Source of the DNA: a virus
Strand: one strand, 5' to 3'
Length of the DNA stretch: 32,831 nt
IMG/VR virus record: IMGVR_UViG_3300003690_000165
Span: 1 to 32,831 of that record
The translations under genes were made by a program, and so were the position numbers. The notes beneath the pieces were generated by a model. It saw nothing but the letters and a program-made list of their open reading frames with translations. It ran no database searches and was not told where the DNA came from. Position 1 is the first letter of the stretch; each line of letters starts with the position of its first letter. Below are positions 4,372 to 24,290 of this stretch, piece after piece.

Positions 4372-4935
4372 ATGGTTAACTTTGCAGATATGTCTGCAGA
4401 GGAACTAGCAGAGGCTAAGTCACAACTGCTAGAGGTAGAGAAAGGTCAGAAAAAGTTAGCTAAAGAGACTGCTCAAAAGGAGGCGCAACAGAAACTAGCT
4501 GGATTGGTGGGTAATTACTTCCCCGATAACAAGGCCGCTACCAAAGTTATGAATGAACTTGAGGAGAGCGGGTTTAGTGGGCTAGAGTTTAGTATCACTA
4601 AGGTAGATGGAGTGGTAACGACTAGTTTCAAAGCAAAGGGAGGTGCTGGAGGAGGTGGCGGTGAGAGGAGACCTGGAGTACCAGTAAGTGAACAGTTTGA
4701 ACAGTTCGCTACGGAAGAGGATAGAACTGAGATGCAGAAACTAGAGGATGAGTATGGACCTAATGACTCACTCTCTAAGGAGGATAAAAAGAAAAAGTCT
4801 TCCGCTCAGTGGGCATTGCCCTCAATTTCCCCTGGTAGAGTAATTACCTCTACTGGGGGTTATTTTTTATCCAATTTAACAGAGCATATTCAATGCACTG
4901 TTCCATGTATACTTCTATTAAGTCTCAGCGGTTAG
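4372..4935 (+). CDS. coiled-coil early protein; frame runs through its own terminator
   Basis: No family is recognised. ATG 4372 follows AGGAGGTAAAC. Residues 8-45 are a charged coiled coil (EELAEAKSQLLEVEKGQKK), residues about 50-90 a compact domain (ELEESGFSGLEF, then DGVVTTSFKAKGG), followed by a glycine-rich linker, an acidic stretch and KEDKKKK. The layout matches the 160-residue protein at 8981-9463. It is the only + strand gene in the early region and has its own promoter. A strong terminator at 4829-4870 lies inside the frame, so residues after about 153 would not be made from a terminated transcript; both other frames stop at 4838 and 4843, just at the hairpin. A frameshift at the AAAAAGAAAAAG run is one explanation, a lost stop codon another. 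Confidence 0.75.
   Translation: MVNFADMSAEELAEAKSQLLEVEKGQKKLAKETAQKEAQQKLAGLVGNYFPDNKAATKVMNELEESGFSGLEFSITKVDGVVTTSFKAKGGAGGGGGERRPGVPVSEQFEQFATEEDRTEMQKLEDEYGPNDSLSKEDKKKKSSAQWALPSISPGRVITSTGGYFLSNLTEHIQCTVPCILLLSLSG
4829..4870 (+). terminator. intrinsic terminator inside the 4372 reading frame
   Basis: CCCCTGGTAGAG (4829-4840) pairs with CTCTACTGGGG (48-59 of the same hundred), with two G-U pairs and a seven-base loop, followed by TTATTTTTTAT. It works only for + strand transcripts, since the opposite side lacks a T-run. It separates this gene from the convergent - strand operon. Confidence 0.85.
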
Positions 4936-5310
4936 TTATGAATAGTCCATAGAGTGGACTCTTGAACATTCATGGGGTACGTTGGTATCTAGAATCCATT
5001 GGTGTAGTTCTTGACCTAGGCTAGCGGCCTTAGAGTCCAATGCACTTCCCAGTCCATCATACCCTCCGATAAAAGATCTCCACCAGTCTATAGGTCTGCC
5101 AATAAACTTAGCAGCAGCCATAATTTGGTCATCTGAGCTACTAGCCTTTAATCGCTCACCTGCGATTAGTAGATCAGTGGGTCAGGCTACACCTCCTTTC
5201 ATAATAGTCCATATACCTAATTTTGCTTTGGATCTAAAGGTATGGACTAGTTCCATCTCTGACCGTGAGATATGGTGTTTGAGTAGGGCAAGGATCTCAT
5301 CATTAGTCAT
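4936..5310 (-). CDS. hypothetical protein interrupted by in-frame TGA (readthrough or broken gene)
   Basis: From ATG 5310, which overlaps the previous stop in TAATG, 42 codons lead to TGA at 5184-5182 (MKGGVA-TGA-PTDLL). The same frame then stays open for 81 more codons to TAA 4936, and the part after TGA looks like protein (IGRPIDWWRSFIGGYDGLG). The ATG at 5121 lies inside this second part but has no good ribosome binding site, and the codons between TGA and that ATG are also protein-like, so one 124-residue product made by reading TGA as an amino acid, or one gene disabled by a point mutation (TGG or CGA to TGA), explains it best. TGA is followed by C, the leakiest context. No family is recognised. 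Confidence 0.55.
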
Positions 5311-5633
5311 TACTTAGCTTCCTTTAGTCGTTTAAGTGCGGCAGAGTGGTGGTCTCTACCATGTATGTTGTACTCTATACTACCTTCGTATCCCAACCAC
5401 TTAGCAATTTTATCTACCATGTTATCTACGGTATCTAGATCACCCTCTATAGGGTAATAGTAGTTATCCTCAGCCAAGTCAAACTTACAACCACTTACAG
5501 TAGCTGCTTTACTGGCAGGTCAGAGGCCCACACCTTTCTTGCCGTAGGCTACTACTCGAGCCGACTGTGCACCATCAATAAAAGATATAGCTCGACTAGA
5601 CTTAGCTGCTAATTTCTCTTGTTCAGTTAACAT
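5310..5633 (-). CDS. hypothetical protein interrupted by in-frame TGA (readthrough or broken gene)
   Basis: ATG 5633 overlaps the upstream stop in TAATG. After 37 codons comes TGA at 5522-5520 (GKKGVGL-TGA-PASKAATVSG), then 69 open codons in the same frame to TAA, which itself overlaps the next ATG. The second part has no start codon near its beginning; it reads CKFDLAEDNYYYPIEGDLDT and ends HGRDHHSAALKRLKEAK. The continuous frame and the intact overlaps at both ends argue for one 107-residue product. The TGA context (GV.L-TGA-CC) resembles that of the next gene. Real TGA stops are used elsewhere in the window, so the code is not globally changed. Function unknown. Confidence 0.55.
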
Positions 5634-5806
5634 TACTTAGTCTTTAACCTTTCTGCTATCAAACTTAAAGACTCTGCTATATCTACAAGCACGAATCTTA
5701 GAGGTGAAATTACATTACAGAGCATCATCATATCATCACTACTATTTCCAGGGTATGGGTAGTTCTGGTCCTCACCCTGTTTTAGAATCTTATCTAAGTC
5801 TCGCAT
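5633..5806 (-). CDS. small hypothetical protein, 57 aa
   Basis: ATG 5806 follows GGAGGATAAGTA, a ribosome binding site lying in the end of the upstream gene, and the stop overlaps the next ATG (TAATG). The N-terminal half is polar (KILKQGEDQNYPYPG), the C-terminal half an amphipathic helix (FVLVDIAESLSLIAERLKTK) suited to dimerisation. No family is recognised. The tight overlaps with both neighbours support it as a real gene. Confidence 0.65.
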   Translation of the reverse strand: MRDLDKILKQGEDQNYPYPGNSSDDMMMLCNVISPLRFVLVDIAESLSLIAERLKTK

Positions 5807-5809
5807 TAC

Positions 5810-6256
5810 TTATCCTCCGTTACTTAACCTATTATACTCAGCCTTAAACTTACCCGCTAGCTCTTTCCACTTTGCATTTTCCTTCCGTAGGCAGGCCAGT
5901 TCATTAAGTAAGGTGCCTACCATATGCTCAAAGGACTCCAGGTTAATAGTAGTATAGTTAGTACTTAACTTCTTTTCTACTGCCTGGACTGCATGGTGAT
6001 GAGACTCTGTTGGTTGATGGGATTCTTTTGGTTCAGGTACACGAAAGTCTATCTGATGGGCATGGTGTTGATCTAACCACTTACCCCTAAGAAAGTATAG
6101 ACTAAATTCTTTCCGTGCTTTAATCCTAATACTTCTACCCATCCGTCCTAACTGTTCACCTATAGCCTCGGGATCTACGTCTAGGTCTACTAACCCTTTA
6201 ATCTTTTTAATTTCCTCTGGTCGCCACTGTTTGTTAGTTCTATTCCTTACCAACAT
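5810..6256 (-). CDS. SANT/Myb-like DNA-binding protein with coiled-coil tail
   Basis: Residues about 8-52 (KQWRPEEIKKIKGLVDLD, then EAIGEQLGRMGRSIRIKARK) match the three-helix SANT/Myb-type fold with its spaced tryptophan and a basic third helix, seen in many phage regulators. A histidine- and proline-rich linker follows (residues about 75-90), then a leucine-rich coiled coil to the C-terminus (LLNELACLRKENAKWKEL) that should form a dimer. The start at ATG 6256 shares a base with the TGA of the upstream zinc ribbon (TGATG). Probably a sequence-specific DNA-binding regulator; its site is unknown. Confidence 0.65.
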   Translation of the reverse strand: MLVRNRTNKQWRPEEIKKIKGLVDLDVDPEAIGEQLGRMGRSIRIKARKEFSLYFLRGKWLDQHHAHQIDFRVPEPKESHQPTESHHHAVQAVEKKLSTNYTTINLESFEHMVGTLLNELACLRKENAKWKELAGKFKAEYNRLSNGG

Positions 6257-6384
6257 CAGTCTGTCTCCTCTCTAAATGTATACCCACAGTTAGTGCATAT
6301 GAACCATAAATGCTCCTCTCTAACAGACATTACCTTGAAACTATTCTTCGCCGCAGTGTACCCACAACTAGGACATTGTAGCAA
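6256..6384 (-). CDS. zinc-ribbon microprotein, 42 aa
   Basis: The product has CPSCGYTAAKNSF and, 20 residues later, CTNCGYTFREE, a textbook zinc ribbon with two CxxCGY knuckles. The only start codon in frame is TTG 6384, with GGAA about eight bases upstream; the frame overlaps the end of the 98-residue gene by 17 bases, and its stop overlaps the next ATG (TGATG). Zinc ribbons of this kind bind nucleic acid or polymerase subunits. The fold is clear, the role is not. Confidence 0.65.
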   Translation of the reverse strand: MLQCPSCGYTAAKNSFKVMSVREEHLWFICTNCGYTFREETD

Positions 6385-6664
6385 GGTAGGATTCCAGTTT
6401 ACTCAACCGCTGCTGTAACTTGGATACCTTACGTACTGAGCTTAATAGAAGTATCTGTTGTACTTGTTCTATTTGCCGTTGTACCACTGCTAGTAATGTA
6501 GGGTATATCTTGTGGCGATAGAGGTATGATATTGTACCGTGAGCACAAGCTATGGTGTATACCTCGTATAACCCATTATCATACTTAATAGGTGATATAG
6601 ATATAGCACATACCTCACAGCCTGGAGTATCACAGCCTAGTACATGTTGTTTAAGTGCACCCAT
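6368..6664 (-). CDS. hypothetical protein with N-terminal Cys cluster, 98 aa
   Basis: ATG 6664 overlaps the stop of the AbrB-like gene by one base. The N-terminus holds GCDTPGCEVC, three cysteines in eight residues, and a further ACAHG around residue 40, together a possible zinc site. Residues about 55-95 form a long leucine- and glutamine-rich helix (QRQIEQVQQILLL, then SKLQQRLSKLESYL), probably a coiled coil. No family is recognised. Its place behind an AbrB-type protein suggests they act together, but this is inference. Confidence 0.65.
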   Translation of the reverse strand: MGALKQHVLGCDTPGCEVCAISISPIKYDNGLYEVYTIACAHGTISYLYRHKIYPTLLAVVQRQIEQVQQILLLSSVRKVSKLQQRLSKLESYLATMS

Positions 6665-6858
6665 TATTCTCCCCCCATTAACTTATCTAACTCTTGGCTA
6701 ATAGGACGGATAATTATCCTACCTCTATCTACCATCATCGCCACCATATCTCCAGGGTGAGTACCTATTTCTTTAGCAATCTCCATAGGTATATAAAGAA
6801 CCTGCTGTTGACCGTCCCGACCCTTTTTACCTATCCTACTTACTTTTACTTTCCTCAT
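6664..6858 (-). CDS. AbrB/MazE-like SpoVT-fold DNA-binding protein
   Basis: The 64 residues fit the swapped-hairpin AbrB (MazE, SpoVT) domain: VSRIGKKGRDGQQQVLYIPM, EIAKEIGTHPGDMVAMMV and DRGRIIIRPI, with the typical 'ip.eia.eig...GD.v' pattern in the middle. Such proteins dimerise and bind DNA as transition-state regulators or as antitoxins. No toxin reading frame of the MazF or PIN type adjoins it, so a regulator is more likely than an antitoxin. It overlaps the upstream zinc-finger gene by 23 bases. Confidence 0.8.
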   Translation of the reverse strand: MRKVKVSRIGKKGRDGQQQVLYIPMEIAKEIGTHPGDMVAMMVDRGRIIIRPISQELDKLMGGE

Positions 6859-7069
6859 TACTTGCCTCCCTTAGTATTAACTTTTGACCTCGACCTAGCC
6901 CCAACCCTCTCCCATATAGATGATAGTCATCTTTACACATATAAGCCCAGGGACCGTGGATGGTCTTGCCATCTACATAGGCAGGTGACTTTTTACAGAT
7001 ATCACAAGTAGGGATAAAATCCATTTCTGCTTGAGTGTGTGGCCAAACCTTAGAAGTATCCTTCTTCAT
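6836..7069 (-). CDS. small phage zinc-finger protein, 77 aa
   Basis: CDICKKSPAYVDGKTIHGPW followed by AYMCKDDYHLYG and GLGLGRGQKLIL matches a widespread family of small phage proteins with a CxxC...C(H) zinc site and a conserved GLG.G.GQ tail. The start at ATG 7069 follows AGGAGGAAGTA and overlaps the upstream stop (TAATG). The family is common in early regions of actinobacterial and other phages; its function has not been settled to my knowledge. Confidence 0.75.
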   Translation of the reverse strand: MKKDTSKVWPHTQAEMDFIPTCDICKKSPAYVDGKTIHGPWAYMCKDDYHLYGRGLGLGRGQKLILREASNEESKSK

Positions 7070-7245
7070 TACTTCCTCCTCATATTAAACCTTTTAGCTA
7101 TACTACCTATACGTTGACGAGATAGTCCATACCTATCACCTATTACTTGATAGCTCAGTTCAGGATGTGAAGAGATATACCTGGCTATCTCATAGGTAAT
7201 CAAAGACATACGTGGTGAGAATATAGAGGTGAGTCTAACTGTCAT
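7069..7245 (-). CDS. small helix-turn-helix protein, 58 aa
   Basis: The frame from ATG 7245 encodes 58 residues, most of them one helix-turn-helix: ISSHPELSYQVIGDRYGLSR with the recognition helix LSRQRIGSIAKRFNM, close to the sigma-factor region 4 or resolvase type. Its stop overlaps the next ATG (TAATG). A good ribosome binding site is not obvious (the upstream sequence is GACACTA), so coupling to the upstream gene is likely. It may act as a phage repressor or Cro-like regulator. Confidence 0.65.
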   Translation of the reverse strand: MTVRLTSIFSPRMSLITYEIARYISSHPELSYQVIGDRYGLSRQRIGSIAKRFNMRRK

Positions 7246-7251
7246 TAGTGT

Positions 7252-7563
7252 CTATTCATCCTCTCTCCAGACTACCACATTATTACTGTCCACTATGTCC
7301 ACTCCATCACTGTGATGCTTTACATATGCTTCGTGCTTTACTTGAGGATAGTTATTTAATATCTTAGTTAACCCACATACACCTTTTGAATTAGGTTTAT
7401 TAACATAGCAGTGGTACTTAGGATGAGTTAATATTACCGCATCGCCTGGTTGAAGACTATTAATTATATCTATGAACTCACTCACATCCTTAGATAATCC
7501 CCTGCGTCCGCCACCTTTATCAAGGTCTAACTCTGATACTTTAGTCTTTTTAATAATCTTCAT
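7252..7563 (-). CDS. hypothetical protein, 103 aa
   Basis: No family is recognised. The N-terminus is basic (KIIKKTKVSELDLDKGGG). A central part reads SLQPGDAVILTHPKYHCYVN, a beta-hairpin-like segment, and the C-terminus is acidic (VVVWREDE). Only two cysteines are present, C67 region and C79 region, so a metal site is unlikely. It overlaps the upstream 74-residue gene by 14 bases and belongs to the run read from 8251-8279. Confidence 0.65.
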   Translation of the reverse strand: MKIIKKTKVSELDLDKGGGRRGLSKDVSEFIDIINSLQPGDAVILTHPKYHCYVNKPNSKGVCGLTKILNNYPQVKHEAYVKHHSDGVDIVDSNNVVVWREDE

Positions 7564-7774
7564 CTATCTGTTCCAATCCCTTATCAGTGATAGCCAGGAG
7601 AGGTTCACCCTTCCGCCATGTTACTGCAACAGACCCATCTCTAATCATATCTACCATAGCTGCATCTACTTCATGTATCCATCTAGCCTTAGGCACCTTG
7701 TTCTGTGCAGCCAACCACAACTCATACTGAGCAGCGGGGTCATGTGTACCGCCTAATTCACTAGTCATCATCAC
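7550..7774 (-). CDS. hypothetical protein, 74 aa, winged-helix-like
   Basis: The product (AQYELWLAAQNKVPKARWI, then VDMIRDGSVAVTWRKGEPLL and AITDKGLEQIDED) reads like a small winged-helix domain: helices followed by a two-strand wing and the 'itdkGle.i' end common in such folds. That comparison is made by eye and is tentative. Three ATG codons follow one another at the start; GGGGGTGATG upstream may serve as ribosome binding site. It overlaps both neighbours by 14 bases. Confidence 0.65.
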   Translation of the reverse strand: MMMTSELGGTHDPAAQYELWLAAQNKVPKARWIHEVDAAMVDMIRDGSVAVTWRKGEPLLAITDKGLEQIDEDY

Positions 7775-8078
7775 CCCCTAGTTCTATCTGTGTATGCACT
7801 ATATGAATAGGATCACCCATATCATACTCGCCACACCCTGGGCAGTAGCTGTCAGGTGGAGACATGTCATCTGCAAGAGGATGACTGTTCTCCTCAAGTA
7901 AATCATGTAACCCTATATAGATCTCTTCAGACAGTACCCAAGGCCGCTCGTGAAAGAGCAACCCAATTAATCCCTTATCATCTGCACCCCTTGTAGCTAT
8001 ACTACAATTGACAATAATCTGACGCTCTTCAAGGGTAGTTGTTATCTCCATGCCATCTGTATGTCGTCGTACTTTCAT
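7761..8078 (-). CDS. hypothetical protein with CxxC, 105 aa
   Basis: No family is recognised. ATG 8078 overlaps the TGA of the upstream zinc ribbon (ATGA). A first half of alternating strands (GMEITTTLEERQIIVNCSIA) is followed by an acidic helix (IYIGLHDLLEENSHPLADD) and YCPGCGEYDMGDPIHIVHTQ, where two cysteines and two histidines could bind a metal. The C-terminus is acidic (GGDDD). Confidence 0.65.
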   Translation of the reverse strand: MKVRRHTDGMEITTTLEERQIIVNCSIATRGADDKGLIGLLFHERPWVLSEEIYIGLHDLLEENSHPLADDMSPPDSYCPGCGEYDMGDPIHIVHTQIELGGDDD

Positions 8079-8206
8079 GCGATGGACTTATGTAAACACG
8101 TATAGCACACCCATTCAAAGCTGGCTTCAATGTCATCTGGCTTGGTAATCTCTATCTCTGTGATCTCACTGGGCTGCTTCACTTCTCCACATTCTTTACA
8201 TGTCAT
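8075..8206 (-). CDS. zinc-ribbon microprotein, 43 aa, first gene of operon
   Basis: CKECGE at the N-terminus and CYTC near the C-terminus, 27 residues apart, make a zinc ribbon with an acidic middle (EITEIEITKPDDIE). ATG 8206 follows AAAGGAGATCACC, a strong ribosome binding site, about 45 bases after the promoter at 8251-8279. The stop overlaps the next ATG (ATGA). Function unknown. Confidence 0.75.
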   Translation of the reverse strand: MTCKECGEVKQPSEITEIEITKPDDIEASFEWVCYTCLHKSIA

Positions 8207-8250
8207 GGTGATCTCCTTTATAGATCCTATTTATATCTTCGCCTATATAT

Positions 8251-8279
8251 ATTATAACAGAAAGTATGACCGTTGTCAA
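8251..8279 (-). promoter_or_regulatory. sigma-70 promoter with overlapping dyad
   Basis: On the - strand TTGACA (8274-8279) and TATAAT (8251-8256) are 17 bases apart. The dyad TGACAACGGTCA (8267-8278) overlaps the -35 box, as at 1676-1687 and 4236-4247, and the next bases (TACTTT versus CACTTT at 4219-4248) are shared too. It drives the run of genes down to about 4936. Confidence 0.85.
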
Positions 8280-8449
8280 TAGGTGATTAAAGGGTTAAGT
8301 CCAAGGTGTGACCTGATACATGCCTTACAATACCCTGACTTGCCAGCGGTTAACCTCACTGCCTTACCACACCCTTTGCACAGTTTAATTCGCCTACCTT
8401 TACGTCGAGGTAGAGAGTAATGTATAATACTCAACACCCATACCACCAT
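8276..8449 (-). CDS. zinc-finger microprotein, 57 aa
   Basis: From ATG 8449 the frame gives a hydrophobic start (MVVWVLSIIHYSL), a basic stretch (PRRKGRRIK) and then CKGCGKAVRLTAGKSGYCKAC, a four-cysteine zinc knuckle. Only a weak GAGA site precedes it; it overlaps the 31-residue ORF upstream by 19 bases, so coupling is likely. The stop codon lies in the -35 region of the promoter at 8251-8279. Function unknown. Confidence 0.6.
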   Translation of the reverse strand: MVVWVLSIIHYSLPRRKGRRIKLCKGCGKAVRLTAGKSGYCKACIRSHLGLNPLITY

Positions 8450-8526
8450 CTATAGTATCTCAACTTATATACCTTAAAATCAGGGCCTAGTAACTTGATT
8501 AGTAATTGTAATTCTTTAAGTGTCAT
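8431..8526 (-). CDS. small hypothetical peptide, 31 aa
   Basis: ATG 8526 follows AGGAGATAGGTA, a good ribosome binding site, and the frame gives an amphipathic helix (TLKELQLLIKLLGPDF) ending in aromatic and basic residues (KLRYYRWWYGC). It overlaps the following zinc-finger gene. It might be a leader peptide that couples translation, or a small membrane-active peptide. Confidence 0.45.
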   Translation of the reverse strand: MTLKELQLLIKLLGPDFKVYKLRYYRWWYGC

Positions 8527-8980: not shown

Positions 8981-9463
8981 TTACCAGCTTAGATTTTGTT
9001 TTTCACACCAGGCACGCATCTTGGCATCACGTTTGCCACTTAAATTCTTTCTGGCGTGGGCATCTTTTTCCATTTTGATTTCACGATCAAGCTCTAGCAC
9101 CAAAGCTAATAGCTCAGAGGGCGGATTGCTGTTATCGAATGTGCCTCTAAGATCGCCTGTTGTTTTGCGCTCGCCGTTGCTCGCTGTTCTTTTACGGCCT
9201 ATTGTCACACAATGTATTTGGCCATTCTCGTCGTAAGCGAAGCCGAAGCCGTTGTAGCCTATTGCTACAAACTTTTCTACAATGTCAATTCTAGCTTTTC
9301 GGTCGGCCGTGTTTACGTTTGTAGCTTCGGCAAGCAAGCTGTCAAGCGTACGCTTTTTGAGCGTACCCTCAGCTTCAGCTAATTGTGCTTTCAATACAGC
9401 CAGCTTCGTGGCGTCAACGTCAGCAAAAGGATTGATTGTTTCAACGTTTGGCGTCATTGTCAA
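8981..9463 (-). CDS. coiled-coil protein related in layout to the 4372 product, 160 aa
   Basis: Residues about 18-50 form a coiled coil (KLAVLKAQLAEAEGTLKKR); residues about 55-95 carry DRKARIDIVEKFVAIGYNGF and GFAYDENGQIHCVTIGRKR, followed by a basic GERK stretch, an acidic helix and a lysine-rich tail. The same order (coiled coil, '.KA....+...+.G+.G+.F', short strands, GER) is seen in the + strand gene at 4372, although base composition and codons differ strongly, with GGC, GCG, ACG and CGT frequent here. The gap of 49 bases to the upstream gene holds one copy of a 29-base inverted repeat. Ribosome binding site AGGAGAAATTGAC. A DNA-binding, nucleoid-like or masking protein is possible; nothing proves it. 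Confidence 0.7.
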   Translation of the reverse strand: MTMTPNVETINPFADVDATKLAVLKAQLAEAEGTLKKRTLDSLLAEATNVNTADRKARIDIVEKFVAIGYNGFGFAYDENGQIHCVTIGRKRTASNGERKTTGDLRGTFDNSNPPSELLALVLELDREIKMEKDAHARKNLSGKRDAKMRAWCEKQNLSW

Positions 9464-10096: not shown

Positions 10097-10243
10097 GAAC
10101 AAATGTTCGCCAGCCTAGCCTATAGAACTAATGTTCAGCACAAATGTTCTAATATTCCAACTGCAAATTTAGAACTAATGTTCTAATATGCCTGGGGCGC
10201 ATGTAGCACAAATGTCTAGCACATATGATTAGCACGCCTGTGC
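10097..10243. promoter_or_regulatory. array of GAAC-N4-GTTC-type dyads (SOS-box-like)
   Basis: Perfect GAAC-N4-GTTC sites lie at 10097-10108 (GAACAAATGTTC), 10125-10136 and 10172-10183 (both GAACTAATGTTC; the last extends to TTAGAACTAATGTTCTAA). Variants are GCACAAATGTTC at 10138-10149, GCACAAATGTCT at 10206-10217, GCACATATGATT at about 10219-10230, and TTAGCACGCCTGTGCTAA at 10230-10247. Several centres are 13 bases apart. The perfect sites match the LexA (DinR) box of Gram-positive bacteria. Confidence 0.7.
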
Positions 10244-24261: not shown

Positions 24262-24290
24262 TTGACACAGGCAATACACCGTGATATAAT
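24262..24290 (+). promoter_or_regulatory. sigma-70 promoter for scaffold and capsid
   Basis: TTGACA (24262-24267), 17 bases, TATAAT (24285-24290), followed by GGAGGTGAAG and ATG 24307. An extra promoter here would raise scaffold and capsid levels above that of the giant gene. Confidence 0.85.

Follow-up and report, generated by a model that had tools for sequence, protein, structure and literature searches.

The window analysed here, a virus record of 32,831 bases with a terminase and a major head protein, has an early region that reads mostly leftward. Two neighbouring leftward genes of this region are each interrupted by one in-frame TGA, and a plus-strand gene converges on the second of them:

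5310-5633, minus strand: early gene of 107 codons including one TGA, encoding an orphan protein (translation; post-TGA coding score 0.236 over 69 codons)
5520-5522, minus strand: in-frame TGA at codon 38 of that gene, context CTC-TGA-CCT (sequence, translation and coding score)
4936-5310, minus strand: early gene of 124 codons including one TGA, encoding an orphan protein (translation; post-TGA coding score 0.098 over 81 codons)
5182-5184, minus strand: in-frame TGA at codon 43 of that gene, context GCC-TGA-CCC (sequence, translation and coding score)
4372-4935, plus strand: convergent gene that seemingly runs past its natural end, with a terminator at 4829-4859 inside the ORF (drop in coding score; terminator prediction)

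Around their stops the two genes read KKGVGL-TGA-PASK (5310-5633) and KGGVA-TGA-PTD (4936-5310), and both stops have the form C-TGA-CC, with a C before, CC after and GGTCA on the plus strand at each site. The sequence and the translations agree with the preliminary description, which had reported one TGA in each of two neighbouring genes in similar settings, each followed by C. Its claim that intact TAATG overlaps mark the outer ends of both genes stands for 5310-5633, which has one at either end (5308-5312 and 5631-5635), but not for the end of 4936-5310, which has one at its start only and whose TAA (4936-4938) abuts the end of the convergent plus-strand ORF. Comparison of the two genes rejects the idea that they are duplicates of each other, and AlphaFold models of both proteins, made with no alignment, have a mean pLDDT of about 40. 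Directly ahead of the TGA in 4936-5310 lies a nearly perfect Shine-Dalgarno-like stretch, AAAGGAGGTG, at 5190-5199 (minus strand); AGGAGGT occurs within genes only six times in the window, and the stretch is probably a chance product of its Lys-Gly-Gly codons. An RF2-type frameshift at this point was considered and rejected, since the +1 frame closes within a few codons.

Both frames were said to be open on either side of the TGA, and indeed neither contains a further stop and both downstream parts score as coding by codon statistics fitted to the remaining genes of the window, in which right-frame chunks have a median of 0.154 and the 99th percentile of wrong-frame chunks is 0.079. The parts beyond both TGAs show no sign of decay or relaxed constraint in these statistics. 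In-frame start codons do follow the TGAs, with 61 or 34 residues still to come in 4936-5310 and with 55, 36 or 28 in 5310-5633; the first restarts lie 14 and 20 codons beyond the TGA and have anti-Shine-Dalgarno energies of -1.1 and +0.4, compared with a median of -6.4 over 37 assigned starts. Because the downstream parts are coding and no restart is usable, we conclude that each gene encodes a single protein or did so until recently. A survey of the window for stops flanked on either side by an open frame of coding character returned nine, the two target TGAs included; we read the other seven as gene junctions with an immediate restart, as short stretches ahead of genes, or as antisense to a gene, and the window yielded no further interrupted frame of the same kind. 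Extended to relatives, the survey gave 12 entries over 534,992 bases, window included (five TGA, five TAG and two TAA), among loci that overlap and of which two, L007 and L045, represent the same record. Outside the window there are ten entries: nine lie in contigs of 57-68% GC, a range in which false open frames are common, and the remaining one (L025, a TAA) in a contig of 46% GC. The surveyed relatives offer no other clear example of TGAs in a pair.

Elsewhere the window keeps the standard code. The 44 genes examined end in TAA (26), TAG (13) or TGA (5), and the 42 genes other than this pair, one of them 2329 codons long, contain no inner stop. TGA genuinely ends at least eight frames: those at 2503, 3571, 6256 and 8075, previously cited against a window-wide code change, each close an open frame, and four more were checked. 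Since in-frame TGA is absent from the 42 remaining genes, that exclusion holds, and a general reading of TGA as tryptophan in the window is ruled out by the same absence together with the eight TGA ends. The frames ending at 2503, 6256 and 8075 (minus strand) encode small zinc-ribbon-like proteins with CxxC motifs and a TGA end, and are absent from the list of ORFs of 50 residues. The suppressor tRNA that the preliminary description had proposed to look for did not appear: the window, which may be a fragment, contains no tRNA gene and hence neither a suppressor tRNA nor a tRNA-Sec.

Both proteins appear to be orphans. The read-through proteins gave nothing at E 0.1 by tblastn against phages, and nothing convincing at E 10 with cysteine at the site; plasmids contained no relative, nor did viral contigs searched by peptide, and an exact DNA pattern for the 5520 site, the one site searched in this way, found no second copy in viral contigs. 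No homologue of either protein came from Pfam, PHROGs, NCBIfam or PADLOC, including queries with cysteine at the site, and the best match among PDB sequences, a colicin immunity protein at E 0.088, is unconvincing. The DNA of 4500-8500 had no match in phages, and Rfam returned weak local matches only, with nothing at gathering score. Alignments of the terminase and of the helicase led to 38 related loci (best identity 55%) and 4 related loci, respectively; two scans of genome contigs found no terminase relatives. Related virus records searched whole (13 and 17, one shared, giving 29 distinct) contained no relative of either gene, in record sets that may omit records very near the window, and six-frame phmmer over 47 loci reached a best E of 0.37.

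These observations lead us to favour, tentatively and at slightly under an even chance, the explanation that each of these early genes, both small and probably dispensable, recently and independently suffered a nonsense change in a tailed-phage-like virus with the standard code. We rank UGA recoding, in which regulated read-through is included, second and an artefact third. Under the nonsense explanation each mutation would have replaced a sense codon with TGA, the products would now be peptides of 37 (5310-5633) and 42 (4936-5310) residues, the remaining frames would be too young to have decayed, and the alike contexts would reflect chance or a shared mutational preference. The recency of the changes, the dispensability of the genes and the halting of ribosomes at the TGAs are what we infer. 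A single stop per gene in frames otherwise without defect, in a window with the standard code and no suppressor tRNA, supports this explanation; that both proteins are orphans fits dispensable accessory genes. The convergent plus-strand gene bears on the same question. Its coding signal disappears near 4805, the score falling from 0.29 before the codon at 4810 to -0.09 after it, a strong intrinsic terminator of 12 pairs follows at 4829-4859, and the gene may have lost its stop codon; an end that looks damaged in this way favours local decay. The TGG at 4810 was considered as the lost TGA stop and set aside, since tryptophan aligns there, at low identity, both in a diverged paralogue of the gene (8981-9463, minus strand, 28% identity) and in L007.

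The shared context of the stops is unusual, although it was noticed first and counted afterwards. Of random nonsense changes in both genes, with transitions weighted 4 and the two actual sites left out, 4.5% would give TGA-C and 0.6% C-TGA-CC, yet both forms are seen at two of two sites. A methylation-linked error or hotspot at GGCC was rejected as the source, since the window shows no general GGCC depletion (49 against 56 expected, with GGTC at 83 against 99) and keeps four in-frame TGGCC codons intact. CC directly follows 4 of 158 TGG codons, 5 of 87 cysteine codons and 5 of 56 CGA codons; two of two before CC is therefore least expected if the lost or recoded residue is tryptophan, which is a weak hint. 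Besides this want of a hotspot, the undecayed downstream parts and a stable hairpin of bacterial SECIS (bSECIS) type after each TGA weigh against two nonsense changes:

5487-5507, minus strand: hairpin with a 9-pair stem and the loop GUA, which starts 21 nt past the TGA; conforms to the bSECIS model (folding; mildly unusual given the amino acids)
5149-5168, minus strand: hairpin with an upper stem of 5-7 pairs and the loop AGGUGA, which starts 20 nt past the TGA; conforms to the bSECIS model (folding; unusual against synonymous shuffles too)

The model, as given in a review (PMC13188914), calls for a loop of 3-9 nt, a stem of 4-16 pairs, a G at the first or second position of the loop, a spacing of 16-37 nt and a minimum free energy of -7.5 or below. 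Both sites satisfy it, and also the G[G/U] form that is common; their loops lie at 20 and 21 nt, and their energies are -15.3 and -14.8 kcal/mol. The outcome is unchanged across all 11 fold lengths tried, and the positive control, E. coli fdhF, passes at 18 nt and -14.2. In stability, the 50 nt downstream of each TGA rank within the top 2-3% of codon positions for this window. Ordinary codons pass the loose form in 1000 of 8388 cases and the tighter form in 494 of 8388, TGG codons in 15 and 5 of 140, respectively, and none of eight genuine TGA stops passes. If the sites are independent, the chance that both pass the tighter form is about 0.0035, for a model that was applied only after the folds had been seen. 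Among synonymous-codon shuffles, scored by a criterion slightly different from the bSECIS test, 5.9% pass for the hairpin in 4936-5310 and 0.1% pass and are equally stable, compared with 40% and 10% for that in 5310-5633, so that only the former is clearly unusual given its amino acids and the latter mildly so. The hairpins are suggestive of recoding, not proof of it.

Because both hairpins fit the bSECIS model, selenocysteine joins tryptophan and arginine as a candidate residue. The host's SelB and tRNA-Sec would then redefine both UGAs through the hairpin directly downstream, and the full products would arise only in hosts that use selenocysteine. This explanation accounts for the UGA, the subsequent C and the hairpins together: both sites pass the model in its G[G/U] form with a stability like that of fdhF, the C after the UGA is found in fdhF too, and the genuine TGA stops of the window fail the test. 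We nevertheless consider it unlikely. The fit was noticed only once the folds had been looked at, and the hairpin in 5310-5633 is not special given its amino acids; no cysteine homologue was found; neither protein has a CxxU or UxxC motif, the next cysteine being 12 residues off in 5310-5633 and far off in 4936-5310; and the window contains no tRNA-Sec. Some selenoproteins have no redox motif of the CxxU/UxxC type. Searches of open-licence papers listed no phage selenoprotein, and the fuller picture of a phage operon in which two neighbouring genes encode new selenoproteins, each gene having a SECIS hairpin right behind its UGA, and in which early expression depends on the selenocysteine machinery of the host, strikes us as rather unlikely.

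Recoding could also take the form of programmed leakiness, in which UGA-C would be decoded with a fixed frequency by a near-cognate tRNA (Trp, Arg or Cys), aided by the stem, to give short and long forms of both early proteins. UGA-C is a leaky stop context in bacteria, and it stands at both sites ahead of stable structure and a frame that remains coding; the TAATG overlaps suggest that translation should normally run to the end of 5310-5633. However, such a structure and such a context are generic and fit this explanation less specifically than they fit selenocysteine, and no relative shows that the arrangement has been kept, so that we regard it as distinctly unlikely.

An artefact of assembly or sequencing, or the entry of a minor variant into the consensus, is improbable. 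If the codon was tryptophan, both sites would carry the same plus-strand change, from C to T within GGCC, and the sequence is a single contig for which no second copy was found (one site searched). Against this, the other 42 of 44 genes, the one of 2329 codons included, have no inner stop, and with 49 GGCC sites and four in-frame TGGCC codons intact a methylation-linked error would have to strike just these two. That each locus encodes two separate small proteins, the second starting internally, finds later in-frame start codons in both genes and is very improbable, since the first of these, 14 and 20 codons past the TGA, have no ribosome site and the whole stretch after each TGA is coding-like and free of stops. 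That the virus reads TGA as sense throughout (code 4 or 25) can be dismissed for this window: TGA stops are scarce (5 of 44), but the other 42 genes lack in-frame TGA, eight frames close with it, several of them with zinc-ribbon-like tails, and recoded phages have dense in-frame TGA (PMC10746230).

The favoured nonsense changes find their closest parallel in pseudogenised phage accessory genes, which likewise have one stop per gene, an intact remaining frame and orphans in an early operon, but the present genes differ in forming a neighbouring pair with the same C-TGA-CC, in their bSECIS-like hairpins and in having no intact relative that we found. With bSECIS genes of the E. coli fdhF type they share an in-frame UGA-C, a hairpin directly downstream, the G of the apical loop, the spacing and the energy, but these are phage orphans with no redox motif, cysteine homologue or known selenocysteine-using host. 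Viral UGA readthrough as in Q-beta and the alphaviruses (named in PMC8310308) resembles the arrangement in its single in-frame stop and coding extension, whereas here the virus is a DNA virus, the genes are early orphans and no relatives show conservation. Stop-recoded phages (codes 4, 15 and 25) also have in-frame stops in their genes, but here there are two sites only, TGA is still a stop and the window has no suppressor tRNA. The literature drawn on also includes PMC1794560 and PMC11210395. Two nonsense changes would mean ordinary decay of orphan phage genes. Recoding, if true, would add a further example of mechanisms already known, placing two early phage genes under host-dependent stop-codon redefinition, and more such genes may be hidden because gene finders truncate them; with selenocysteine, these would possibly be the first phage selenoproteins, judged by the open-licence literature.

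Five sigma-70-like promoter candidates, at 12627-12599, 8279-8251, 4248-4219 and 1688-1660 (minus strand) and 24262-24290 (plus strand), all have 12 of 12 consensus bases and a TG ahead of the second hexamer, which points to a bacterial host. Three GAACNNNNGTTC boxes stand inside 90 bases of a long intergenic stretch (10097-10108, 10125-10136 and 10172-10183), compared with an expectation of 0.25 for the entire window. Their sequence resembles that of Gram-positive SOS (LexA-type) operators, and the same consensus appears in connection with a Clostridium difficile LexA paper (PMC4234289). Finally, over the whole window the tetranucleotide CGCG is absent where 25 copies are expected, GATC, CCGG and GCGC occur at about 0.6 of expectation and CpG at 0.53, which suggests avoidance of host restriction sites.
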